Shown here piece after piece: positions 47,237 through 61,081 of a stretch of DNA of 64,000 nucleotides. The stretch covers positions 5,896,204-5,960,203 of the forward strand of contig NZ_JHEG04000001.1 in assembly GCF_000760695.4 (NCBI RefSeq). The letters run 5' to 3'. The first letter of the stretch is position 1, and the number at the start of each line of letters is the position of its first letter. This DNA comes from Tolypothrix bouteillei VB521301 (GTDB lineage: Bacteria > Cyanobacteriota > Cyanobacteriia > Cyanobacteriales > Nostocaceae). The position numbers and the translations under genes are program-made. Below the pieces are notes generated by a model. That model made no database searches and was not told the DNA's origin. It saw only the letters and a list, made by a program, of their open reading frames with translations.

Positions 47237-48571
47237 TTAGCAAGTTACTAACTCTCTCAACTGGTGAGCTTTGGCTTCTTCCTCTTCCATAAAGATATTG
47301 GCCAGATCGAACAGAATCTCGAGAGTACCTCGGTAACCTACTTTTGTATACAAACCGTTACCCAAACGGTCAAAAATGGGAATACCTTGACGGTAAATAG
47401 GAACGCCCAAACGCTTTGCGATCGCAACACTATGAGAATTTCCAATTAGCAAATCGGAACCAACAGCCAGTTGCTCAAAATCTTCTAAATCGCCTACAGT
47501 CACGCTATTTATAGGAAGTTTTTCCAACAGAGGAGAACGAGTTGTTGTCACTGCTGCGTGAATTTCAGCACCCATGGATTGTAAAAAATAAACTGTTGAA
47601 CCGAGTAAATCCGGTTCTAGTGCTAGAGACACTCGCTTGCAACCAAAGAAAAAATGAGTATCTAACATAGCATCTTGTAACTGACGGCGTTGGCGGCGGT
47701 ATTTTTCTGGTACCGCAGTCCCACTCACATCTGACAATGCTTGTAAGAAGTTATCAACTGGTTCTAATCCCGTCAGTTCGCCAAAAACTTCATAGGGAAT
47801 GTTAAAGCGATCGTGCAGAATTTTTGCTGCACCCCGCATACTTTCACCTAAAGCTAAAGTGAATGCAGAATTACCAATTTCTCTCAATTCTGCTAAACTT
47901 GTACCCTTAGCTGTAATTGCACTATAAGAATCTTCCAAATGACCATCCAAAGATGCAGCCAGATCCGGTACAACAATGGGTTGCAGTCCAAAAGCAGCGA
48001 CAATCTCTTTGATCTCCTCAACATCCCCAGGAGTAAAAGCAGAACTTGGCAGAATTGCAATTTGCATGGGATGGGGATTTTGCTCATCACTTTTTTGAGC
48101 CAGTTCTCGGACAATGCTCTCTACAGCAGCAGCATATCCATCTTGCAAAGAACCTTTAAAATCTGGAGAGGAGACCAAGACAACTGGTAAGCTATCTAAC
48201 TCTGGGTGACGTTTGCGAATACCCCTAAGAATGTGGGGCATGTCATCCCCTCTGGTTTCCGTCAGTGCAGTCGTACACAAACCAATGACATCTGGCTTCA
48301 ATCTTTCTGCTAGAGTCAAAATAGCTTGTTCAACATTTTCCTCTCCACCCAGTATCGTGCTGACTTCCGACATTGCTGTCGTTGACAGGGGAATTGTTTC
48401 AGAAAAATGCTTCACCAATAAAGACTTAGCAAAAGCAGTACAGCCTTGAGAACCGTGGAATAGTGGTATCATCCCCTTCAAGCCCAACAAAGCTAGAGCA
48501 GCACCCAAAGGTTGGCTGAGTTTCAAAGGATTTACTGCAACTGACGAATTGGTAACAGTCACGATCGCCAT
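47237..48571 (-). CDS. nifN: FeMo-cofactor scaffold subunit NifN
   Basis: 444 residues of the nitrogenase component-1 family: NPLKLSQPLGAALALLGL, GSQGCTAFAKSLLVKHF and STILGGEENVEQAI. With NifE it forms the tetramer on which FeMo-cofactor matures. It starts 1 bp after the nifE stop. The final Cys comes from repeat DNA and is probably not functional. Confidence 0.96.
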   Translation of the reverse strand: MAIVTVTNSSVAVNPLKLSQPLGAALALLGLKGMIPLFHGSQGCTAFAKSLLVKHFSETIPLSTTAMSEVSTILGGEENVEQAILTLAERLKPDVIGLCTTALTETRGDDMPHILRGIRKRHPELDSLPVVLVSSPDFKGSLQDGYAAAVESIVRELAQKSDEQNPHPMQIAILPSSAFTPGDVEEIKEIVAAFGLQPIVVPDLAASLDGHLEDSYSAITAKGTSLAELREIGNSAFTLALGESMRGAAKILHDRFNIPYEVFGELTGLEPVDNFLQALSDVSGTAVPEKYRRQRRQLQDAMLDTHFFFGCKRVSLALEPDLLGSTVYFLQSMGAEIHAAVTTTRSPLLEKLPINSVTVGDLEDFEQLAVGSDLLIGNSHSVAIAKRLGVPIYRQGIPIFDRLGNGLYTKVGYRGTLEILFDLANIFMEEEEAKAHQLRELVTC

Positions 48572-48572
48572 T

Positions 48573-49469
48573 TTAGATGACCTCCTTTAAAGAAGAGGGG
48601 GAGACAAGGGGAAGGGGAGAAGGGGGGATAACAGAGGAAGAAATTTCTCCCTCTCCTGTTTTTTCCCAAGGTGCAGGCTTACGGACTTGTTCCCACACAG
48701 GGCTATAAACGGCTTCATACAATTCTCTTGCCATTTCTAACATTCCTGTATAGCCAGCATAAGGGTGATGGCGTTCTTGGTTGATATGTAGAAAAGGAAT
48801 TCGAGCTTTTAAGGCGGTGTACTGATTTCGTCCCCCAGCAATTAACATATCAGCTTTAGTTTCTTTAATAATTCGCAAGAGTTCTTTGGGACTTTCTTGT
48901 TCCAACATGATGCCATCTTGACCCAACAACTTTTTGATGCGGGCTTTGTCTTCTTCCGTGCTTTTTCTGGTACTTGTAGCGACAACTTCCATTCCCAAGT
49001 CTTTAGCTGCAGAAATGATAGACCAACTCTTAACGCCTCCGGTGTAGAGAACGATACGCTTTCCTTTTAATTTCTCACGATAGGGAGCCAGTGCTACATC
49101 AAGAGCAGCTGTTTCTTCTGCAATCAGCTTTTCAGTACGCTCTTGTAAATCCGCATCGCCTATCTTTGCAGCAATATTCCGCAGACAGCGGTTCATATCT
49201 TCTACACCATAGAATGATTCTTCCGTGTAGGGGATGCCATAGCGCTCTGCCATTTTTGTTGCCATATTGAGCAGCGCTTTGGAGCAAATCATCACGTTGA
49301 GTTTAGCTCGGTGAGCGTAACAAATTTCTTGATACCGAGCATCACCTGTAATTTTTGATAAGACTCTGATACCTAATTTTTGAAAAAGTGGCAAAACACT
49401 CCACATTTCGCCTGCAACATTATATTCGCCAATAAGATTAATGTCATAAGGTGTAGTATACTCTGGCTC
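48573..49469 (-). CDS. nifE: nifE 3' segment (interrupted gene)
   Basis: Codons for EYTTPYDINLIGEYNVAGE and the following 277 residues (MWSVLPLFQKLGIRV to the stop) form the C-terminal 60% of NifE, including GGVKSWSIISAAKDLG and AGGRNQYTALKARIPF. There is no native start; upstream the frame runs into element DNA and a stop at 49506. The C-terminus goes beyond the usual ...RKPAPW by about 26 Ser/Pro-rich residues encoded by a purine-rich repeat. A NifE C-terminal fragment alone could not work as a scaffold. Confidence 0.93.
   Translation of the reverse strand, partial: EPEYTTPYDINLIGEYNVAGEMWSVLPLFQKLGIRVLSKITGDARYQEICYAHRAKLNVMICSKALLNMATKMAERYGIPYTEESFYGVEDMNRCLRNIAAKIGDADLQERTEKLIAEETAALDVALAPYREKLKGKRIVLYTGGVKSWSIISAAKDLGMEVVATSTRKSTEEDKARIKKLLGQDGIMLEQESPKELLRIIKETKADMLIAGGRNQYTALKARIPFLHINQERHHPYAGYTGMLEMARELYEAVYSPVWEQVRKPAPWEKTGEGEISSSVIPPSPLPLVSPSSLKEVI
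49453..49469. other. nifE element end (3'-nifE side)
   Basis: GTAGTATACTCTGGCTC, containing the nifE half of the rebuilt site (GTAGTA arm at 49453-49458) and the putative crossover TC at 49468-49469. Confidence 0.6.
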
Positions 49470-49906
49470 AAATGAACGCTTTTTACCACATATAAATGGG
49501 ATCGCCTACAAAATACCCTATAATGTACTCCGGCATAACATTAGCTAAAATCCACGCAACAAAAAGACTTCACCGATTGCATTGCTTGCGGTGATGGAGT
49601 GAATTGCAGTGTCGGGTGCAGTCGTCAACTTCTGGAAGTAAAGCATGAATATTCCGTATCGCTTGCATAAAAGAGAGCCTGCAAATGCTTTCACATTCAC
49701 GCTCCTTAGCATAAGACTTTTGTCAATACAGTTTTTTGCAACTGAGTCTGCGCGATCGAGCATTTGATCGTGCAAGAAAAGACAACGACGAACTTTTACT
49801 TTCAACTTTATATTCTAAGCAATACCTGCATAGGTCAGGCAGCGCCAGAAATACACACCAGTGTAACTCCTTTGACAATTCGCAATTCTAACTCAGGTAA
49901 GTACTC
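49470..49906. other. element left flank, no supported gene
   Basis: 437 bp. A minus-strand frame at 49545-49805 (86 codons) has no homology-like features, no ribosome site and biased composition, so it is not called. The region just before 49907 should hold a promoter for the secreted protein gene. Confidence 0.4.
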
Positions 49907-50521
49907 ATGAAAAAAGCTTTGATTGCTGCTTCCACGCTATTTGCTAGTGTAGAAATTTTGACACTGGTACATCTGCCAGTCATGGCGCTCCCCAAACCGA
50001 GTGTTCGAGTAAGTCAAGCGGTACAAGCACCCCTTCCCCCTAACTCTACAATTCAATCCCCCACGCCAGCCCTTGGGTTTGGTTTAGCAGATGGTACGCC
50101 TGTCAAAGTAAAATTTAAGCAAACAATTTCTTCTAAAACGGCTAAAGAAAACGATACGGTAGAGTTTGAAGTGTCTGAAAATGTTTTGGTGGGTAATGCA
50201 GTCGTCATTGCAAAAGGCGCGATCGCAAAGGGTATAGTCACAAGAGCAAGACGCTCTGGAATGTTGGGTCGAAAAGGAAAGCTGAATGTAGCGCTCAAAG
50301 AAGTCACTTTAGTCAGTGGCGAACGCATTTCTATTCGAGCAGAGCAAAAAAGCGGTGGTGGGACATCTGGAGGAGTCATTGCAGCAGCCGCAGTACTAAC
50401 TCCGTTGGCTTTATTATTTAAAGGTAAGAATAGAACTTATGAAGCAGGTACTGAGGTTCAAGCCTTTGTGGATGGCAACTTTGCGCTTGACCGAAATAAG
50501 TTTAAAACAAACTTAAGGTAA
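49907..50521 (+). CDS. secreted beta-rich protein, element cargo
   Basis: 204 residues. A signal peptide (MKKALIAASTLFASVEILTL) precedes a domain with DGTPVKVKFKQTISSKTAKENDTVEFEV, VVIAKGAIAKGIVTRAR and MLGRKGKLNVALKEV. This is a widespread family of uncharacterised envelope proteins with a short hydrophobic stretch near the end. It has no evident link with nitrogen fixation or excision. Confidence 0.65.
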   Translation: MKKALIAASTLFASVEILTLVHLPVMALPKPSVRVSQAVQAPLPPNSTIQSPTPALGFGLADGTPVKVKFKQTISSKTAKENDTVEFEVSENVLVGNAVVIAKGAIAKGIVTRARRSGMLGRKGKLNVALKEVTLVSGERISIRAEQKSGGGTSGGVIAAAAVLTPLALLFKGKNRTYEAGTEVQAFVDGNFALDRNKFKTNLR

Positions 50522-50689
50522 AAAATGAGTTTCATATTATCTTTATGTCTATCTCTCCAAAATCCCGCTAAAGTTTTGTTATTTGATTAATTCGATACCT
50601 AAAATTTGCATCTACTTCAGCATAATTGCTTGTTGCCTTGAGTAAGTTATCATAACCGAGCGCGAACGCTCCCAGTCCAATTTACACCC

Positions 50690-51022
50690 ATGCATCTCCA
50701 AAACCAGCAATTAGAAGACCGCAACAATTGTAATTTGAGAAAGCAGAACTGGTTACAATTGTTGCTGTTTTGTAGCACATTAACACTGTCAGGCACATCC
50801 GTTTGCGCTCAGATTACCCCGGATAACACATTAGGAGCAGAAAGTTCTTTCATCAGACCCAATATTTTCATCAACGGAGCAAATGGAGATCGCATTGAAG
50901 GTGGTGCTAGACGAGGAGACAATCTCTTTCACAGCTTCAGTCAATTCAATATTAATAACGGACAAAGGTCCCCGAAGAAAATTAATGAGGAAGAAGCGAG
51001 GATTGTGCAATGGATACCTTAG
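50690..51022 (+). pseudogene. truncated filamentous-haemagglutinin (TPS) protein
   Basis: 110 residues. After a signal segment ending SVCA it starts a two-partner-secretion domain: QITPDNTLGAESSF, IEGGARRGDNLFHSFSQFNI. Normal members continue for hundreds of residues; here the match stops at NNGQR and the frame ends 18 codons later. It is a decayed adhesin gene in the element. Confidence 0.75.
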
Positions 51023-51558
51023 AACACTATCGCCATTTCTTGGAATATGTGAAAGAAACATTAAAACTATTTATATATGTTCATCTTCTAAAGCATTATT
51101 TTCAAGTTTTGTACTAAAAGGCAAAGTATCAAAACCTAAATTTTTAATGCAATAATTGAGGTTTCAACTTCTGTATTATTAATTGTTTCTCGATTGATTT
51201 TCAAAAATATGTGAAAACATTTCACATATGTATCCTCATTCAAAAAAATATAAATTTTAATTATATATAAAGCAATTTATAACACTTGATTTTACGTAGT
51301 CTTTAATTGGATCGCCTTTGAGAAAAAAGTTTGTCATTCATTGACCATAAAATCAAGTGTTGCCAATATCACATTATAAAAACCTTTTAATCTTATTTAT
51401 TCTTGCGCTTCATCTTGAAAAAAAATTGGCATTAACCTAGCATTGAATAACAAATTTTGGGTGTATTTGCAGATTATTAGTAGTCAAACGGCTTCTTAAG
51501 TATATAAGTATAAGAGCCATAAAAAACAAAGAACTAGTAGTATACCCTCGCTGTAAAT
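51023..51558. other. AT-rich gap with two inverted repeats
   Basis: No gene. 51207-51229 is a perfect ATATGTGAAA-ACA-TTTCACATAT palindrome. 51281-51294 and 51348-51361 are a perfect 14-bp inverted pair (AACACTTGATTTTA) enclosing 53 bp, possibly a tiny non-autonomous insertion. Confidence 0.55.
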
Positions 51559-53286
51559 ATGTCAATCACACGCCTGCGAACTTTTTTAACTACCAAAAGG
51601 CATAAATCTCAAATTATATTTTGGTTCGGTTTAAGTCTGATTTTTGCAATTATTTATAGTCTTTTAGAGCTAAAGCAGGCATTCAGTAGTGCCTACGTAG
51701 TACAAGATGATGCGCGGGTATATGTATCTTGGATGCAAAGATTTTTAGAATCAGACTTTCTGCCAAATGATTTGCTTGCCGATTATTTTCAATCCGTCAC
51801 ACCATTTGGATATGCTGCTCTTTATCGACTCATAGCATCTGTGAGTATCGATCCACTTTACTCAAGCAAAATCCTGCCACTCTTGTTGCTTTTGCCGACA
51901 ACTAGCTACTGTTTTGCCGTTTCTATGCAGATATTACCAGTGCCAGCCGTAGGATTTCTGACTACACTGCTGTTTAGTCAAAATCTGGTAATGAGAGATG
52001 ATTTAGTCTCGGCTACGCCTAGATCTTTTATTTACTTGCTGTTTCTAGCGTTTGTGTACTATTTACTGCGAGGTAATGCACTTCTATGTCTGGGCGCGAT
52101 CGCACTATCTGGATTGTTTTACCCACCATTATTGTTTATCTTATCTGGAATCTTAATCTTGAGGTTATGGCATTGGCAAGACAAGCTCCCCCGTTTATCC
52201 CGGAATCGCCGAGATTACATATTTAGCATGACTGGGCTAGGGCTTGCCTTGATTATGATGCTACCTTATGCCTTAAGTTCTTCCGAATATGGTTCTGTAG
52301 TTGCACCAAATGCAGTTAGAGCATTACCAGAATTTTCTGAAACAGGACGGATACCCTTTTTTGATAACAATCTCGTCCAGTTTTGGCTATTGGGACAGCA
52401 CAGCGGTCTTCTGGCAAATGTATTAGAACATCCACTATCCTCAATTGGTTTTTTATTACCAATACTGCTGCGCCATCCCGAACGCTTTCCTTTAGTTAAA
52501 CGAGTAACCAGCAATATTAGACTTTTACCAAAGATTGCACTGGTATCTGTAGGGATGTTTTTTGCTGCTCATTTTACGCTTTACAAGCTATTTGCGCCCG
52601 CCCGTTATACGCGATATACACTCAAGTTTGTCATCATTCTAGCTGCCGGAATCGCGATCGCAGCGATACTAGATGCAGTTTTTCGCACGAGCAAGAAGTC
52701 CGCTCACGTTCCAGAGCATCGACAGTTTTTAGCCTTCGGGTTAACAGTCTTATTAGGAACTACCCTTGTGTTTTATCCTCTATTATTGTCACACTTTCCA
52801 AACAGCAATTACATCAAAGGTGAAGCACCAGTCATATATGAGTTTTTTCGGAAAACCCCGAAAGATATTCTCATTGCTGGGTTATCACCTGAAACAGACA
52901 ATCTGCCAACATTTTCTCATCGATCTATCTTGGTTGGTTGGGAATATGCAGTTCCTTACCATACGATATATGCCAGCAAAATTAGACAACGAGCGACCGA
53001 TCTCATTCGCGCTCAATATACTCAAAATTTGGTAGAAGTTCAAAATTTTATTCAAAAGTATGGGGTAGATTTTTTCCTGCTAGATCGCACAGCATTTACA
53101 CCTGAATACATCAAAACAAATCCTTGGCTGAAACAATGGCAGTTCATAGCAAAAGATATTTTAGCTACACTAGAGCAGGGAAATACCCCAGCTATACTCA
53201 GCACGCTGAAGCGTTGTTCTGTAGAAGAGACTGAAACATTGATTGTACTCCAGGCAAAATGTGTGACAACTCAGAATTTATCTTGA
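51559..53286 (+). CDS. polytopic membrane protein, GT-C glycosyltransferase-like
   Basis: 575 residues with about ten transmembrane segments and a soluble C-terminal domain (from residue 430, PKDILIAGLSPETDNLPTFS). Early in the first loop is VVQDDARVYVSWMQRFL, an acidic motif in the place where GT-C transferases have their catalytic Asp. It is therefore perhaps a lipid-linked sugar transferase, but this is a fold-level guess. It is the largest cargo gene of the nifE element. Confidence 0.6.
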   Translation: MSITRLRTFLTTKRHKSQIIFWFGLSLIFAIIYSLLELKQAFSSAYVVQDDARVYVSWMQRFLESDFLPNDLLADYFQSVTPFGYAALYRLIASVSIDPLYSSKILPLLLLLPTTSYCFAVSMQILPVPAVGFLTTLLFSQNLVMRDDLVSATPRSFIYLLFLAFVYYLLRGNALLCLGAIALSGLFYPPLLFILSGILILRLWHWQDKLPRLSRNRRDYIFSMTGLGLALIMMLPYALSSSEYGSVVAPNAVRALPEFSETGRIPFFDNNLVQFWLLGQHSGLLANVLEHPLSSIGFLLPILLRHPERFPLVKRVTSNIRLLPKIALVSVGMFFAAHFTLYKLFAPARYTRYTLKFVIILAAGIAIAAILDAVFRTSKKSAHVPEHRQFLAFGLTVLLGTTLVFYPLLLSHFPNSNYIKGEAPVIYEFFRKTPKDILIAGLSPETDNLPTFSHRSILVGWEYAVPYHTIYASKIRQRATDLIRAQYTQNLVEVQNFIQKYGVDFFLLDRTAFTPEYIKTNPWLKQWQFIAKDILATLEQGNTPAILSTLKRCSVEETETLIVLQAKCVTTQNLS

Positions 53287-53421
53287 ACTAGAGTCAGTAA
53301 CTAAGCCTCGCAATTTCCATCGAAGCTAGAATGTTAAAATGAGAGCGCTTATGCTGGATGAGTTAGAATCAGCATAGCGTACATTCGCTACATTATCGGT
53401 CTGAAATCCCAGCTTACAACT

Positions 53422-53784
53422 ATGCAAGTTACCTTCGATTTGCCTGATGATTTTGTTGCCCGGTTGCGTCCACTTGAAGACAAACTGCCACAAATTTTAG
53501 AGTTGGGATTGCGAGAACTTAATGCGAGTGGTCAGAGTGAATTTTCTGGTGTAGCTGAAGTACTGGAATTTCTAGCCAGTCTCCCCACTCCAGAAGCCAT
53601 TATTGCCTTACGTCCTTCTAAAACCCTACAAGCTCAGATTTCTGCTCTGCTGGAGAAAAATCATACTGTAGGTTTGACATCTACAGAAGAACAGTTATGG
53701 CAAGGGTATCAGTACCTGGAACATATTGTGAGAATGGCTAAGGCTAGAGCATTCTTAAAGCTCAAGGAAGTTCAAGGGAAATGA
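53422..53784 (+). CDS. small helical protein, possible antitoxin-like partner
   Basis: 120 residues: MQVTFDLPDDFVARLRPLEDKLPQI-type start, ELGLRELNA, then a long helix with VRMAKARAFLKLK. Similar proteins are common in cyanobacteria and, from memory, often precede an HNH or PIN nuclease. An overlapping ATGA here begins a frame MSTTYI... that stops after 17 codons, as if the partner gene had been cut off. Confidence 0.5.
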   Translation: MQVTFDLPDDFVARLRPLEDKLPQILELGLRELNASGQSEFSGVAEVLEFLASLPTPEAIIALRPSKTLQAQISALLEKNHTVGLTSTEEQLWQGYQYLEHIVRMAKARAFLKLKEVQGK

Positions 53785-53990
53785 GTACGACCTACATTTC
53801 TGGTATACTGCAAACAACAAATAGTTTCGGTCTTGTTTCTTGATACTAATAAGCTATTGTTGCCGAATCATAGCCATGACAGGGCTAGCATTTGAGATGT
53901 GCTTACTATGAGTATGATGTTTATTCGTTCGCTGTTAACAGAAAAGTTTCAACCAATAAATAAGCTAAAAACATCGCTACAGAATGTTTT

Positions 53991-54257
53991 ATGGCTTCAG
54001 ATCGTTCTCAAAAAGTTCTAAAAATGCTTAATGACAGGTTACTCGAAGCTTATGAAAGATACTATGGAAATTTGAAGATTGGTGATATGTCTCCTAAAGA
54101 ATTCATCAAAACCTATGGATGTATAGAGGATAGACTTAATAGCAATTTAAAATTGGAAGTTACAACCTCTTCTGAATCTACTTCAACTTCCTCTACAAAC
54201 TCAGCTAGTACCGATCGCAGTTCCGAGTCATCTAATGACTCCCAAAATGTAGCTTAA
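53991..54257 (+). CDS. short chimeric reading frame, doubtful
   Basis: 88 residues. The first 51 (MASDRSQKVLKMLNDRLLEAYERYYG..) look like a small helical domain. From about codon 52 the frame is the antisense of a recombinase 3'-end copy, giving the Ser/Thr-rich tail ESTSTSSTNSASTDRSS. The natural C-terminus is therefore lost or replaced. Confidence 0.35.
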   Translation: MASDRSQKVLKMLNDRLLEAYERYYGNLKIGDMSPKEFIKTYGCIEDRLNSNLKLEVTTSSESTSTSSTNSASTDRSSESSNDSQNVA

Positions 54258-54336
54258 TAAGCAATAGCTGTTGTCCTCTTGGCATTTTCAAAGGTATCCC
54301 TATCTACAATCCGAGCGGGGATTGATAGGGTACTAC
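54142..54336 (-). pseudogene. remnant of a second serine-recombinase 3' end
   Basis: About 195 bp closely matching the last part of the recombinase gene at 54956-55170 (shared GCAATTTAAAA, GTTACAACC, TCTGAATCTA, ATTGATAGGGTACTA stretches) on the same strand. Its frame is broken by stops. It points to an earlier or duplicated recombinase. Confidence 0.75.
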
Positions 54337-54437
54337 TCCCTTAAATCCTTCATAACTGAAGGGCTGTTCATCCGGGTGACACTTCATAAAAGTTTTAGTC
54401 TACATTTTGGTTTTGCAGAAAAATGGATAAAGTCGAG

Positions 54438-54887
54438 CTAAGAATCTTTGTTTTTAGCAATAACCCAGCTTAAGACATTTAATACAGCAAATAAACTTGC
54501 ACCTGCTTCACCTATATCAACAAGGATACTCTCTCCGGATTTTATTTTTATATTTATTTCTTGAGTTTGGCTTTTAAATGATGCTCCTATGCGAAACATT
54601 TCTTCTTTATTAATATCTGCGCTTTTCATTATTTCGTAATATAAACTATTCCGCTTTTGATTAACTTCCCAGACGAATCTTTTGTTTGTAATTAAGCACC
54701 AATGATGGACGCTTAGAAAATTTAATATAGATGGTTTTTCGTCCGTTTCTAAAGCCACTTCATGCAGCACATAATTTTTTGTTTCATTCGGAAAACTTTT
54801 GAAGGACATAATAACTTTGCTATTGATTTTCTTCCGAACAAAAATAGAAGATATTATATCGGAATCTAATATTTTTTTGCTGCTCAT
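54438..54887 (-). CDS. hypothetical protein between recombinase copies
   Basis: 149 residues, no recognised family. It has a central beta-rich part (VHHWCLITNKRFVWEVNQKR, resembling PH-like/bPH folds) and a hydrophobic C-terminal helix (ASLFAVLNVLSWVIAK). It lies just downstream of the recombinase, on the same strand, with its own ATG. Confidence 0.5.
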   Translation of the reverse strand: MSSKKILDSDIISSIFVRKKINSKVIMSFKSFPNETKNYVLHEVALETDEKPSILNFLSVHHWCLITNKRFVWEVNQKRNSLYYEIMKSADINKEEMFRIGASFKSQTQEINIKIKSGESILVDIGEAGASLFAVLNVLSWVIAKNKDS

Positions 54888-54944
54888 AATTGTTTTACTA
54901 TTTCTATAACTTTATGATTGGTTCGCGTGACAGTCAAACCATAT

Positions 54945-56342
54945 CTAGAAATGAATCGCGGATGGCAATTTAAAACTAGGAGTTACAACCCCTTCTGAAT
55001 CTATTTCAACTTTCTCGACAAATTCAGCTAGTGCAGCTCGCAATACCGCGTCATCCAATGATTCCCAGAACTTAGCTTGAGACGCAATGACGATTTTCCT
55101 CTTAGCATTCTCAAAAGTATCCGGATCGACTATTCTACTTGGGGTTGATAGGGTACTAATAGTCGCTTCTATTTTTGCGATCGCTTGAATTATGTCTGGG
55201 TTAGAACTCCGCAGCCCTCGCAAAACCGACAATTCATTGGTTAACTTTTCTATTTGCTTGGTATGAATGACTTGTGTTGTCGCTGATTGATTTTCTAAAT
55301 GCTCGATTAATTTGGGTGCATATTCGCATAAAGCTGCGATCGTCTTCGCTATAATTTCCCGCAATCGAGTACATTTTGAATTTTTGCAGTGATATTTTCC
55401 CGGTTTATTGTAATTCACGCAGCGCATATACTCAGTTCTCGTTTTATGTCGGGAAAAGTTACGATACATACCTCCTTCACAATGGCTGCACTTAATTAAG
55501 CCTGCAAGCGGATAGTCGCCACGTGTTGATTTTGTCGAACTCCGATACCTCCTATTTGCCGACAATTTTTGTTGAATTGCGTCTACAGTGGCTGAAGTAA
55601 TCAGGGCTTCGTGAGTATTAAAATTGATTATTGGTTCTCGATTAATACCTTTTTTCTTTTTTATGAAATAAGCTGTATGTCCTTGTAAAGCAAGGTTTTT
55701 TACCCAATCTCGCAAGCCTGCAACAGTAAAAACTATTTCGTATTCATTATAAATGTAATTACATACATCTTTTAGCGATCGCATTTCCAAAATTAGCTCT
55801 ATAATAATTTTTGCTAGTTCAAAATAGGTTTTTCCAGATTTTTCGTGAATATTTTTATTAGGGGTTAAACGCTGATTTTCATCTTTGGCATATCCAAATG
55901 GAGGAACGCAAAACTTTAATTGCTGCCGAAAATACTCGTTTCCTTGTTTAACCCGTTGGGATAATAGCCTTGATTCAAACTCAGCAAGCCCGGACATCTG
56001 GTTAATACTAAACCATCCAAAGGGGCTGTTTGGATCGACAGGTGCATCGAGTACCCGTAGATTGACATTATGCCTGACAAAAATGTCGATTGTCTTGTGA
56101 ATAGTAATCACACTTCTACCCAAGCGATCGACACGAGTTATGATAATTTCGTCAACTTGGTTTTGTTGTACCAACTTCAGCAACTCATTAAATTGTTTTC
56201 TAGCATCGTTGCGTCCCGACTCAATATCAATCAAAACTTCCATTGCACCCGCTGCTTTTAATCTGGCTATTTGCTGATTGAGTGCGTCAAACTCCTCTGC
56301 TTGTTCTTGGGTGCTCACGCGGGCGTAACCGTAAACTCTCAT
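54945..56342 (-). CDS. large serine recombinase of the nifE element (XisF-like)
   Basis: 465 residues. The catalytic resolvase domain starts MRVYGYARVSTQEQ (Ser10 in the position of the nucleophile) and has IITRVDRLGRS. A recombinase domain, a zinc ribbon (CSHCEGGMYRN...MRCVNYNKPGKYHCKNSKC) and a coiled coil (residues 350-395) follow. This is the large-serine-recombinase plan of XisF of the fdxN element. Its start codon lies 64 bp from the element end, as for phage integrases beside attP. It probably excises the element in heterocysts. Confidence 0.92.
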   Translation of the reverse strand: MRVYGYARVSTQEQAEEFDALNQQIARLKAAGAMEVLIDIESGRNDARKQFNELLKLVQQNQVDEIIITRVDRLGRSVITIHKTIDIFVRHNVNLRVLDAPVDPNSPFGWFSINQMSGLAEFESRLLSQRVKQGNEYFRQQLKFCVPPFGYAKDENQRLTPNKNIHEKSGKTYFELAKIIIELILEMRSLKDVCNYIYNEYEIVFTVAGLRDWVKNLALQGHTAYFIKKKKGINREPIINFNTHEALITSATVDAIQQKLSANRRYRSSTKSTRGDYPLAGLIKCSHCEGGMYRNFSRHKTRTEYMRCVNYNKPGKYHCKNSKCTRLREIIAKTIAALCEYAPKLIEHLENQSATTQVIHTKQIEKLTNELSVLRGLRSSNPDIIQAIAKIEATISTLSTPSRIVDPDTFENAKRKIVIASQAKFWESLDDAVLRAALAEFVEKVEIDSEGVVTPSFKLPSAIHF

Positions 56343-56374
56343 GAGAATTTGTTCAAATCAATCCCAAAATAATA

Positions 56375-56965
56375 TCACAAAAGGTGTTGTTGTAAGTGGT
56401 TGGGTTCACGTGTACCTACTACATAATCTAATAGAGCTTCACCTGCAAGGCGGTTGCCAAAATTCTTGCTACCAATGAAACCTGGAGCATTAACGGGGAT
56501 AACAGGGGTGTTGATTTTCTCTCCAGCCGTTTTACACACTGCATCTAAATCTTCACCAATGAGAGCGGTGACACAGGTAGAGTAAACAAAGATAGCAGCA
56601 GGATGGTAGCGCTTTTCAATTTCCAAAATAGCTTTATATAACTTTTTCCCTCCACCAAAGATGACATCAGTTTCATCCATATCGGTGGTAAAGCCAGTCC
56701 TGTACAGCATTGGACCGGAAGAAAAACTACCGCGACTTCCCCAAGAATTACCAGAACAAGCGATCGGTCCGTGAACTAAATGAGCGGCATCGGTAATAGG
56801 TACTAGAGCAATCATAGCACCATCAAAAGCACAACCCCCTTGAGCAGCACCCGGTTTGGGTAATTGCGAACAAGACTTGTTTTTCTTGTCTCCATGCTTG
56901 TTTTTATTGTGTTCGCAACCGGGCTGAGTTAGCAACTCGTTAATTTTACTTTGGTTAATTTTCAT
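56375..56965 (-). CDS. nifE: nifE 5' segment (interrupted gene)
   Basis: 196 codons, of which the first 188 are NifE: the [12 protein letters not shown] and [15 protein letters not shown] motifs and [16 protein letters not shown] hold the cysteines that bind the NifE-side cluster. The last eight (NHLQQHLL) and the stop come from element DNA. After excision it would join the segment ending at 48573. Alone it is a fragment without the cofactor-holding C-terminal domains. Confidence 0.93.
56406..56422. other. nifE element end (5'-nifE side)
   Basis: TCACGTGTACCTACTAC: putative crossover TC at 56406-56407 and TACTAC arm at 56417-56422, the mirror of the GTAGTA arm at 49453-49458 and at the same 10-bp distance. 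Confidence 0.6.
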
Positions 56966-57583: not shown

Positions 57584-59122
57584 CTAGCGAATCAAGTCGA
57601 AGGAGATATCGGTCTTACCAGTAATGTTGGTGTTGCGATCCAACTCATCCAGAAGTGTGTTAACAACCCAGTTGAGTAGGTTTAAACCACCTTGGTAACC
57701 AACAGTTGGGTAGCGGTGCAAGTGGTGGCGATCGAAGAGAGGATAACCAATCCGTACCATTGGGATCTTGGTATCGCGCCACAGGTACTTACCGTAGGAG
57801 TTACCTACGAAGAAGTCTACAGGTTCAGTGAACAAGAGACTGCGTAGATGCCACAAGTCTTTTTGAATCCAAACAGTAGCTTGCTTACCGAAGGGGCTAG
57901 CGCTGAGGATTGCTTCCATTTCTTTCTTGAATTCGTTATCGCCATTGTTGCAGAGGATGTGTACTGGTTCAGCACCTAACTCCAACAAGAAGCTAACTAC
58001 ACTAATGATTAAATCTGGATCGCCGTAAATTGCGAACTTCTTGCCATGAATCCAAGCATAGGAGTCTGTCATGGCATCTACCAAGCGTCCCCGTTCGATT
58101 TCTAATTCTTCAGGGATAGGCTTACCAGTTAATTCTGACAGTGTCATTAAGAATTCATCAGTGCCTTTAACGCCCCAAGGACGCAATACCTTGGTTTGTT
58201 GACCCCACTTTTCTTTGACATACTCTTGTGTCTTTTGAGTGGAGTATCCTTGTAAGAACACGGTTCCATTTGCATTAATGGAATCAGCCGCATCTTCTAG
58301 CTTGGTACCACCTGGGTACATATTGTACTCACCGTTGTTTGGTGAATCCAAATAATCGCTGTTATCAGCCAGGATAGTATGGTCAATTCCCATCAAGCCC
58401 AGAATCCGCTTGATTTCGCGGTTGTTACCAGTGTAGGTATCAAATCCAGGAACAAAGTTCAGCTTGCCGTTGGTGGTATTTTTCTTCTTACCTTCTGTCA
58501 AATTAGACAGAATTCCCTTCATCATGTTGTCGTAGCCAGTGATGTGAGAACCAACGAAGCTAGGAGTGTGAGCAAAAGGTACGGGGAAATCCTGGGGAAT
58601 TGCATCTGCATTCTTAGCATTACCAATGAACGCGCCCAAGTCATCACCGATAACTTCTGCCATACAAGTGGTGCTGACAGCAATCATTTTTGGCTTGTAA
58701 AGTTGGTAAGCAACTTGCAAACCTTCAATCATGTTGTTTAAACCACCGAATACTGCAGCATCTTCTGTCATAGAAGAAGAAACGGCGGAGAACGGCTCTT
58801 TGTAATGACGGCTGAGGTGAGTACGGAAATAAGCAACGCAACCTTGAGAACCTTGTACAAAAGGTAAAGTACCTTCAAAACCAGCAGCAGCAAAAATAGC
58901 TCCTAAGGGTTGGCAACCTTTTGCAGGGTTAACTGTTAACGCTTCACGAGCAAAGTTCTTTTCACGGTACTCCCAGCTTTTTGTCCACTCAGAAACCCGT
59001 TCTACTTCTTCGTCGCTGTGTCCGCCTTCAAACTGTTCTCTTTTGTTCTTGAATAACTCTTGGTATTCTGGTTGTTGGAACAGCTCTGCGTGGTCTTTAA
59101 TTTGTTCTGGATTCTGAGGCAT
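57584..59122 (-). CDS. nifK: nitrogenase MoFe protein beta subunit NifK
   Basis: 512 residues, complete and uninterrupted. The P-cluster cysteines are in NPAKGCQPLGA, GSQGCVAYFRTHLSRH and STTCMAEVIGDDLG. A GGAGA ribosome site lies upstream of ATG 59122. With NifD it forms the MoFe protein. Confidence 0.97.
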   Translation of the reverse strand: MPQNPEQIKDHAELFQQPEYQELFKNKREQFEGGHSDEEVERVSEWTKSWEYREKNFAREALTVNPAKGCQPLGAIFAAAGFEGTLPFVQGSQGCVAYFRTHLSRHYKEPFSAVSSSMTEDAAVFGGLNNMIEGLQVAYQLYKPKMIAVSTTCMAEVIGDDLGAFIGNAKNADAIPQDFPVPFAHTPSFVGSHITGYDNMMKGILSNLTEGKKKNTTNGKLNFVPGFDTYTGNNREIKRILGLMGIDHTILADNSDYLDSPNNGEYNMYPGGTKLEDAADSINANGTVFLQGYSTQKTQEYVKEKWGQQTKVLRPWGVKGTDEFLMTLSELTGKPIPEELEIERGRLVDAMTDSYAWIHGKKFAIYGDPDLIISVVSFLLELGAEPVHILCNNGDNEFKKEMEAILSASPFGKQATVWIQKDLWHLRSLLFTEPVDFFVGNSYGKYLWRDTKIPMVRIGYPLFDRHHLHRYPTVGYQGGLNLLNWVVNTLLDELDRNTNITGKTDISFDLIR

Positions 59123-59402: not shown

Positions 59403-59544
59403 TTAAGCGCTAACTTTAGCTTTAGCAGTTTCTTTTTTCCAAGGAGTTGGAATAATATCCCAAGTGGGGCTGTTGAGAGCTAAATCCATATCACGAGCAA
59501 AAACTGCGAAACCGTCATAACCGTGATAAGGACCGGAGTAATTC
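59403..59544 (-). CDS. nifD: nifD 3' end (interrupted gene)
   Basis: Only the last 46 codons of Nif[21 protein letters not shown].. to the stop at 59403. Upstream of TAC TCC the NifD match ends and the nifD element begins. The rest of nifD must lie beyond the window end. Confidence 0.93.
59534..59544. other. nifD element direct-repeat copy
   Basis: CGGAGTAATTC, i.e. GAATTACTCCG on the coding strand, one base different from the 11-bp GGATTACTCCG at which XisA recombines in Anabaena PCC 7120. The partner copy lies outside the window. Confidence 0.8.
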
Positions 59545-59662: not shown

Positions 59663-61081
59663 ATGGAAAAACAGGGTATTGACAAATATCAGCAAGCTTT
59701 TGAAGACTTAGAGCCAATTTCATCGACTGATGGTAGTTTTCTTGGCTCAAGTCTGCAAGCACAGCAACAAAGAGAGCATATGCAAAATAAAGTATTACTG
59801 GAATTAGAGAAAGTTAATCAGCGTTTGAAGTTGGCAAAGACAAAGGTGACAATTCGGGAATCAAACGGAAGCTTGCAGTTACGTGCTACGTTACCAATTA
59901 AACCGGGAGATAAAGATACAAAGGGAACCGGAAGAAAGCAATACAATCTCAGTTTAAATATTCCAGCTAACTTAGATGGGTTGAAAACTGCTGAGGAAGA
60001 AGCATACGAATTAGGGAAGTTAATTGCAAGGCATAGCTTTCAATGGACTGATAAATATTTAGGAAATGAAGCTATTAAGAAAAGTTTCAAGACAATAGGA
60101 GAATTACTGGAAAAATTTGAAGAGGAGTATTTTAAAACACACAAACGAACAACAAAAAGCGAACATACTTTTTTTTATTACTTTTCTCGAACAAAACGAT
60201 TTACAAATCCTTTGGATTTAGCTTCTCCAGAAAATTTGGTAGCATCCGTTGAAAAAATTGATAAAGAATGGGCAAGATATAATGCAGTTCGTGCGATCTC
60301 AGCTTTTTGTCTAACTTTTAAAATTGACATTGATTTATCGAAATATTCCAAAATACCTGAGTGTAATTCCCGTAAGATACCTTCAGATGAAGAAATATGT
60401 ATGGGAATTTTAAAATTTGAAGATTACTTAAAGAATAGGGGAAATCAAGTCAACCAAGATGTCAAAGATAGCTGGCAACTTTGGCGCTGGACTTATGGAA
60501 TGCTAGCGGTTTTTGGTTTGCGACCGAGAGAACTTTTTACAAATCCCGATATTGATTGGTGGTTAAGTCAAGAAAACCTAGACTTGACATGGAAAGTTCA
60601 TAAAGATTGTAAAACGGGAGAGAGACAAGCATTGCCATTACACAAACAATGGATTGAAGACTTTGATTTAAGAAACCCAAAATATGTAGAGATGTTGGCA
60701 ACGGCTATTAGCAAGAAAGATAAGAATAATTACGCAGAGACAACCGCATTAACTCAAAGAGTAAGTTGGTGGTTTCGTAAAATAGGATTGGATTTTAAGC
60801 CCTACGATTTACGTCATGCTTGGGCGATTCGGGCGCATATTCTGGGAATCCCAATTAAAGCAGCGGCGGATAATTTAGGTCATAGCGTGCAAGTTCATAC
60901 TCAAACTTATCAGCGTTGGTTCTCGTTGGATATGAGGAAGTTAGCGATTAATCAAGCGTTGAGTAAGAGAAATGAACTGGAGTTTATTCGGGAGGAAAAT
61001 GCTAAGTTGAGGATGGAAAATGAGAAGTTAAAGCTAGAGATTGAAAAGTTGAAAATGGAGTTGCTTTATAAGCGGAGTTGA
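59663..61081 (+). CDS. xisA: tyrosine recombinase XisA (nifD element excisase)
   Basis: 472 residues of the tyrosine recombinase family: first arginine in LRPRELF, the H-x-x-R box in YDLRHAWAIRAH and the catalytic tyrosine in VHTQTYQRWF. A leucine/lysine-rich coiled coil ends the protein (RMENEKLKLEIEKLKMEL). XisA excises the nifD element during heterocyst formation. It is on the strand opposite to nifD. Confidence 0.94.
   Translation: MEKQGIDKYQQAFEDLEPISSTDGSFLGSSLQAQQQREHMQNKVLLELEKVNQRLKLAKTKVTIRESNGSLQLRATLPIKPGDKDTKGTGRKQYNLSLNIPANLDGLKTAEEEAYELGKLIARHSFQWTDKYLGNEAIKKSFKTIGELLEKFEEEYFKTHKRTTKSEHTFFYYFSRTKRFTNPLDLASPENLVASVEKIDKEWARYNAVRAISAFCLTFKIDIDLSKYSKIPECNSRKIPSDEEICMGILKFEDYLKNRGNQVNQDVKDSWQLWRWTYGMLAVFGLRPRELFTNPDIDWWLSQENLDLTWKVHKDCKTGERQALPLHKQWIEDFDLRNPKYVEMLATAISKKDKNNYAETTALTQRVSWWFRKIGLDFKPYDLRHAWAIRAHILGIPIKAAADNLGHSVQVHTQTYQRWFSLDMRKLAINQALSKRNELEFIREENAKLRMENEKLKLEIEKLKMELLYKRS

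Follow-up and report, generated by a model that had tools for sequence, protein, structure and literature searches.

In a stretch of 64,000 nucleotides from the cyanobacterium Tolypothrix bouteillei VB521301 (contig NZ_JHEG04000001.1; hereafter the window), the nitrogen fixation gene nifE is split by a 6,938-bp element that carries an intact recombinase, and the two gene parts rejoin in frame once the element is taken out. On the basis of sequence comparisons, this is very probably an interruption element of the heterocyst type that is excised by its own large serine recombinase. Both parts matched the nifE model TIGR01283, the first open reading frame (ORF) over profile positions 2-193 and the second, as listed, over positions 211-459; each scored under the whole-protein cut-off because each is a partial protein. 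Cutting in silico after a GA dinucleotide shared by the element ends (56406-56407 / 49468-49469) removed 6,938 bp and produced a single frame for NifE residues 1-456, which is by construction 100% identical to its parts. An earlier note, made from the DNA letters alone, had described two same-strand nifE parts 6.9 kb apart that rejoin in frame, an insert of 6.94 kb and a large serine recombinase inside it. The ORFs, the TIGR01283 matches and the in-silico cut bear this description out, with a true first half of ~187 instead of 188 residues; its expected product of ~0.5 kb from the span 49300-56600 has to be corrected to a computed 363 bp. Heterocyst interruption elements split one gene into two same-strand parts that rejoin in frame over a shared repeat, and carry their own xis recombinase near the element end, and both features were found here. 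Mis-assembly of the window is unlikely, as both nifE halves have the same orientation within a single contig of 9.49 Mb and nifE is split alike in a genome of the same genus (G034).

The recombinase, for which we use our own label XisE, scored 493.3 bits against the model of XisF (NF041201, recomb_XisF; cut-off 375), a protein that the earlier note had suggested as a comparison. It exceeded the cut-offs of the resolvase (PF00239), Recombinase (PF07508) and zinc-ribbon (PF13408) domains, the combination that marks large serine integrases, and its residues 1-136 align with gamma-delta resolvase, YARVST and DRLGR included. Its ATG, on the nifE strand, is separated by 32 bp from the end of the first-part ORF and lies 63 bp inside the cut at the upstream element end. 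Among the best 120 of 165 matches, 40 proteins were at least 77% identical (77-96%; one of half length) and the next was at 46%; judged by this identity gap, which defines the group here in place of a tree, the nifE recombinases are a discrete group. We then considered 19 recombinase loci from GTDB genomes, 17 at 77-90% identity and two at 36-39%. A nifE half was present within ~0.35 kb of all 17 loci at 77-90% identity (the first half at 16, the second at L014), so the association between recombinase and nifE is not a matter of chance. No nifE match lay beside the two loci at 36-39%.

Comparison of the element ends points to an attachment (att) site for this recombinase group that is new here. 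In 21/21 pairs of attL and attR sites, from 20 genomes (G112 has two attL sites and is counted twice), the predicted cut restores one nifE frame, always at the same codon. Each pair has a stretch common to its two sites, up to 12 bp long in the relatives; this stretch contains GA in all 21 pairs, and GA alone is common to all. As GA differs from its reverse complement, it would fix the direction of the site. The left arm of attR and the right arm of attL, brought together in the reconstructed attP, form an imperfect 16-bp inverted repeat around GA, which in G133 is symmetric at 16/16 positions (GGTGTTGTTGTAAACG-N7-GA-N7-CGTTTACAACAACACC). Over the 21 pairs, attP had a mean of 11.1/16 symmetric positions centred on GA, compared with 4.85 after shuffling (maximum 6.43 in 1000 trials) and at most 7.29 at 16 other centres, with an arm length and distance that had been picked after inspecting the sequences. 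The corresponding values were 7.4 for the joined attB, 3.8 for attL and 4.3 for attR. Symmetry around a two-base core, as in the sites of large serine integrases, was thus present in the 21 pairs. For the window, the predicted junction of the joined nifE reads ...CGTGAGCCAGAG... and that of the circle ...TTTGAACCCAAC.... No exact direct repeats of at least 12 bp were found between both junction regions; the longest, of 10 bp, is situated away from the junction.

The distribution of the recombinase followed that of the split gene. The group recombinase was found in 21 of 192 genomes of the family, and the identical 21 genomes have nifE split at this codon, G084 being judged on the first half alone (no match to the second half, nifE_C). 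A chance insertion unrelated to the recombinase was rejected on the strength of this co-occurrence. In the survey, an unbroken nifE was judged by best E-value, except in 26 genomes that were searched again, and a split nifE lacking the group recombinase would be missed if it stood behind an intact second nifE. G083, with two recombinases at 43% identity, was left out of the group; the partial nifE matches of G107 and G170 were attributed to contig edges and kept out of the split count, nifE of G161 is interrupted at another position, and G040 gave no nifE match at all. Recombinase and NifE distances were correlated (r = 0.62 over 19 genomes, 0/5000 permutations as high; G085 was excluded on account of its two-frame recombinase), in line with a largely vertical descent.

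Against G034 (inferred to be S. hofmannii PCC 7110), the ratio of nonsynonymous to synonymous substitution rates (dN/dS) was 0.052 for the first half of nifE (nifE_N), 0.099 for nifE_C, 0.054 for the recombinase and 0.064 for nifN, at dS values of 0.31-0.36; nifK gave 0.077 at a dS of 0.15, and xisA 0.096. By these ratios both nifE halves and the recombinase are under purifying selection, and a dead insert would look different. We consider it very improbable, therefore, that the element is a fixed dead insertion whose host tolerates a broken nifE through an orphan NifE paralogue or has lost nitrogen fixation. Such a paralogue does exist: an intact nifE at C1:8302438-8303712, in a 462-aa frame, scored 516.7 bits against a cut-off of 505.1. 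Located far from the nif cluster (L004:8117-12998), beside a nifH gene that exceeds the TIGR01287 cut-off and near a gene for a molybdate-binding protein, it encodes a protein 60% identical to the main copy that keeps 6/9 of the main-copy cysteines at aligned positions (45, 70, 131, 144, 236 and 248; not 17, 32 and 281). Set against a dead insertion, besides the dN/dS of 0.05-0.10 at dS ~0.3, are the results of a PF00148 search, which found no second nifD, nifK or nifN in the genome (the two remaining matches were protochlorophyllide reductase B and N), and the related genomes G036 and G065, which have a split nifE and no other, intact NifE at E <= 1e-60. A complete second nif or vnf cluster was not found in the genome, which holds only the orphan nifE and nifH. 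The earlier claim that active NifEN needs the excision holds in a weakened form: dependence is likely, given that nifD, nifK and nifN have no second copy, and it is not strict because the intact orphan nifE exists.

Besides the orphan paralogue, other observations weigh against excision of the element by its recombinase. The attP of the window is symmetric at only 9/16 positions, under the mean, and the stretch common to its attL and attR at the core is no longer than TGA (GAA vs GAG next to it), which makes it the shortest among the 21 pairs. Excision of the fdxN element requires XisH and XisI in addition to the recombinase XisF (PMC4874684). Whole-genome searches gave no XisH or XisI match inside the nifE element, and no directionality candidate was sought beyond these two; elsewhere in the genome, XisH is only partial (three places) and XisI is near full length in three places. 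The recombinase sits in nifE, so that the element does not belong to the XisF-type fdxN elements, defined by their location in fdxN together with XisH and XisI.

From the anatomy of the locus, the intact recombinase, the in-frame product, the att symmetry, the conservation and the selection, all read from the DNA, we infer the following course of events. The recombinase would bind attL, between the first half of nifE and the element, and attR, between the element and the second half, cut both at the central dinucleotide GA and swap the ends, which would leave nifE joined in frame and release a 6.94-kb circle carrying attP. Known elements suggest that this would take place in differentiating heterocysts. 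The earlier note had proposed removal in heterocysts by this recombinase; the excision part of that proposal fits the intact gene, the 21/21 joins, the att site, the co-occurrence and the selection, and the timing part would follow from the known elements. Excision outside heterocysts, or not in heterocysts only, as a leaky or stress-driven event in vegetative cells, hormogonia or akinetes, seems to us most unlikely. Elements are known in genes and organisms without a heterocyst role (Hilton, Meeks and Zehr 2016, PMC4874684, cited throughout from the portion of the text available), and a sigma70-like promoter candidate precedes the recombinase, but nifE here belongs to a nif operon with a nifD element, and the nifB1, nifU1 and nifE1 promoters of Anabaena variabilis are heterocyst-specific (PMC4284476, likewise cited from the available portion).

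The position of the recombinase bears on how it would be expressed. In 20/21 genomes (the exception is G098) it follows nifE_N co-directionally, either at once or with a few hundred bases between them, whereas of the 93 xis genes placed in the 2016 survey 70 are antisense to the split gene and 23 share its orientation (PMC4874684). In A. variabilis no promoter is present upstream of nifK1 or nifE1, and in an xisA mutant the nifKENXW transcripts are nearly gone (PMC4284476). Because of this co-directional arrangement and these promoter and mutant data, our results suggest an ordered cascade in which XisA first excises the nifD element, after which the nif transcript could extend into the nifE recombinase gene. 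The recombinase would then be transcribed at least partly by read-through of the nif operon and may be read from it once the nifD element is gone, as in a relative nifK-nifE is reached only after XisA removes that element. Some evidence argues the other way. The nifE1 gene of A. variabilis holds a weak internal promoter (PMC4284476), and in the window a promoter-like site stands before the recombinase, so read-through may not be needed to drive it. This site is weak when taken alone (one found vs 1.6 expected in shuffles); TATNAT occurs 26-31 nt behind the core in 17/21 attL sites. Chances are about even that the recombinase is driven solely by its own promoter, independently of nifD excision, which would be compatible with excision of the element; the promoter candidates speak for it, and against it stands the retention of the recombinase on the nifE strand behind nifE_N when most surveyed xis genes are antisense.

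We also analyzed the arrangement of the nifE halves in the relatives. Both halves lie on one contig in 13/21 genomes and on different contigs in seven, and in one the second half is absent. They are on the same strand in six genomes (G000, G034, G053, G085, G098 and G123) and on opposite strands in 7/13 (G019, G036, G065, G103, G148, G156 and G163); an opposite-strand pair cannot be mended by simple excision. In G036 (probably Calothrix sp. NIES-3974; L104-L107) and G065 (probably Calothrix sp. PCC 6303; L108-L110) the block nifE_C-nifN-nifX-nifW-hesAB-fdxH is reversed as a whole. Inversion in silico at the GA cores, over 29,045 bp and 15,754 bp respectively, produced the order nifK-E-N-X-W-hesAB-fdxH and a joined NifE frame with zero deletion. 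In G019 (L101-L103), G103 (L111-L113) and G148 (L114-L116) it is the block nifK_C-nifE_N that is reversed, between nifK_N and nifE_C; here a nifK element and the nifE element are interlocked, and each block end has its own recombinase. One inversion and one deletion in silico, in either order, led to the same product, with NifK 1-512 and NifE 1-456 in frame and the gene order restored. These resolutions cover five of the seven opposite-strand genomes, the nifK first parts of G156 and G163 being on other contigs. By themselves, the rearrangements of nifE and nifK would leave the cluster as a whole non-functional, because nifD still carries its element in all five genomes and nifK of G036 is also split by a further tyrosine element.

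Hilton et al. judged seven opposite-strand cases, over all genes, to be likely mis-assemblies (PMC4874684). For the relatives studied here, the sequences make mis-assembly an unlikely cause. G019, G103 and G148 share the order, their element interiors matched at 87-97% in the main pieces compared, and the pieces contain zero stops and gave dN/dS values under 0.13 in 20/21 cases (one value of 0.22). In G065, the sole inverted repeat of at least 30 bp found in 55 kb was a 51-bp palindrome. No second nifK was detected in G036, G065 or G019 at E <= 1e-28. To be weighed on the side of mis-assembly is a diverged inverted repeat with one copy per element in G019 and G148 (151 bp at 87% and 185 bp at 83%), which sits where an inversion could have begun, in evolution or in assembly; shorter inverted repeats occur in G103 and G036. 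Taking both sides together, we think it likely that this recombinase group does more than excise, and that several relatives with scrambled nif clusters would rely on programmed DNA inversion to restore nifE. Among the matches listed in the open-licence literature, judged by title and start of abstract, no description of nif-gene inversion in heterocysts was found, and the available portions of PMC3542288 and PMC4907049 make no claim of it.

Coordinates in the window of the nifE element, its predicted sites, its cargo and the adjoining nif genes (aa, amino acids; nt, nucleotides)
Feature	Coordinates	Strand	Remarks
nifE interruption element	49468..56405		6,938 bp between cut points; in-silico cut at shared core
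nifE first part	56375..56965	-	196-aa ORF; genuine NifE only to 56406, ORF end is element sequence
nifE second part	48573..49466	-	begins at the proline after residue 187; profile match and in-silico joining
Large serine recombinase (XisE)	54945..56342	-	465 aa; XisF model
attL (predicted)	56383..56407	-	core GA (56406-56407), 7-nt spacer, 16-nt arm CACTTACAACAACACC
attR (predicted)	49468..49492	-	16-nt arm TATGTGGTAAAAAGCG, 7-nt spacer, core GA (49468-49469)
Promoter-like site	56369..56396	-	CTTACA-16-TATTAT, TG before the second hexamer; overlaps attL arm
Cargo ORF, 204 aa	49907..50521	+	no family match
Cargo ORF, 110 aa	50690..51022	+	TPS secretion domain fragment under the Pfam cut-off
Cargo ORF, 575 aa	51559..53286	+	membrane-like by eye; no family match
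Cargo ORF, 120 aa	53422..53784	+	no family match
Cargo ORF, 88 aa	53991..54257	+	no family match
Decayed duplicate of recombinase C-terminus	54119..54334	-	residues 396-464; 68% identical; one stop
Cargo ORF, 149 aa	54438..54887	-	no family match
nifN, directly downstream of nifE	47237..48571	-	TIGR01285, 611 bits, cut-off 327
nifK, intact, upstream of nifE	57584..59122	-	TIGR01286, 911 bits, cut-off 427
nifD C-terminal part, past its own element	59403..59540	-	recognised by eye from residues
Tyrosine recombinase of nifD element	59663..61081	+	Phage_integrase match under the Pfam cut-off; no NCBIfam match

The downstream half of the nif cluster runs on the minus strand, with the C-terminal part of nifD, nifK, the first part of nifE, the insert, the second part of nifE and nifN, followed by nifX, a NifX-associated gene, nifW and three more genes that we take, by family and position, to be hesA, hesB and fdxH. 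Neither tRNA genes nor Rfam families were detected in the window at default or gathering thresholds, and no phage genes were recognised among the element proteins scanned for family matches. In a relative, L007 13573-13821 gave a match similar to the remnant of the recombinase C-terminus in the window (54119-54334). The end of the nifD element (59534) and that of the nifE element (56405) are ~3.1 kb apart, which agrees with the distance in the earlier note, where two recombinase classes were inferred to act on one operon 3 kb from each other. The nifD element measures ~5.8 kb here (repeat ATTACTCCG at window position 59534 and genome position 5961499); the A. variabilis type is larger, at 11 kb.

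Several relatives showed variations on the interruption of nifE and nifK. In G085 (L023, L125) the nifE-element recombinase is divided between two frames, one with residues 1-231 and the other with 226-460, and this copy may be inactive. G098 (L126-L128) uses the same nifE site and core, with the recombinase at the nifE_C end in the opposite reading and an element of 29.3 kb. A second insertion site in nifE was seen in G161 (L131-L132, C1:6378039-6389352), where the gene is split near codon 158 by ~9.9 kb, with a tyrosine recombinase (50% identical to the XisA of the window) and a 12-bp direct repeat, ATTATTCCAGTT. In L007, L008, L010-L013, L015, L016, L018, L022 and L023, nifK too has an interruption, near residue 429 and next to a different serine recombinase (24-28% identical); by eye, in three genomes, its att arms resemble inverted repeats, TGATAGCCAACGCATT / AATGCGTTTGCTATCA, around GTTCAC.

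A serine and a tyrosine element together in one nif operon are known from Nostoc 7120, in fdxN and nifD. Within the operon studied here, the nifD element likewise splits a nif gene, and it differs from the nifE element in having a tyrosine recombinase, presumably of the XisA type, encoded antisense to nifD, and a direct repeat of at least 9 bp. The fdxN element of Nostoc sp. PCC 7120 (XisF/XisH/XisI) resembles the nifE element in its large serine recombinase, the XisF-named NF041201 model covering that of nifE; it differs in the gene interrupted and in XisH and XisI, for which the nifE element has no match. Among the matches listed, a comparison outside which XisF of PCC 7120 itself lies, proteins other than the nifE group reach no more than 46% identity with it. 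Phage large serine integrases act on attP and attB sites with a central dinucleotide. The nifE system has in common with them the resolvase, Recombinase and zinc-ribbon domains, the symmetric attP arms and the non-palindromic two-base core, and departs from them in that the element would restore a host gene and that no phage gene was recognised in it.

As a kind, nifE elements have already been published, in agreement with the earlier note, which had named nifE as a known carrier: Hilton, Meeks and Zehr reported two nifE elements of one variant, and found that each of the 22 ortholog groups includes elements with serine recombinases (PMC4874684). Their nifE element is alike in its gene, the recombinase inside, the flanking direct repeat and its occurrence in heterocyst-forming cyanobacteria; the available portion of their account neither describes the architecture of an att site nor proposes inversion (PMC4874684). 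What is new here is the recombinase group and its distribution, the att site, the selection and the position of the recombinase. A recombinase group tied to one gene is thereby supplied with a precise, predicted att site. The finding indicates that the germ-line genome maintains not just structural genes but also the scaffold gene for the iron-molybdenum cofactor in a broken state, and the position of the recombinase makes the order of the nif rearrangements a testable question. If the opposite-strand arrangements are real, some heterocysts must unscramble their nif cluster by inversion and deletion, which would parallel, in bacteria, the gene unscrambling known from ciliates.

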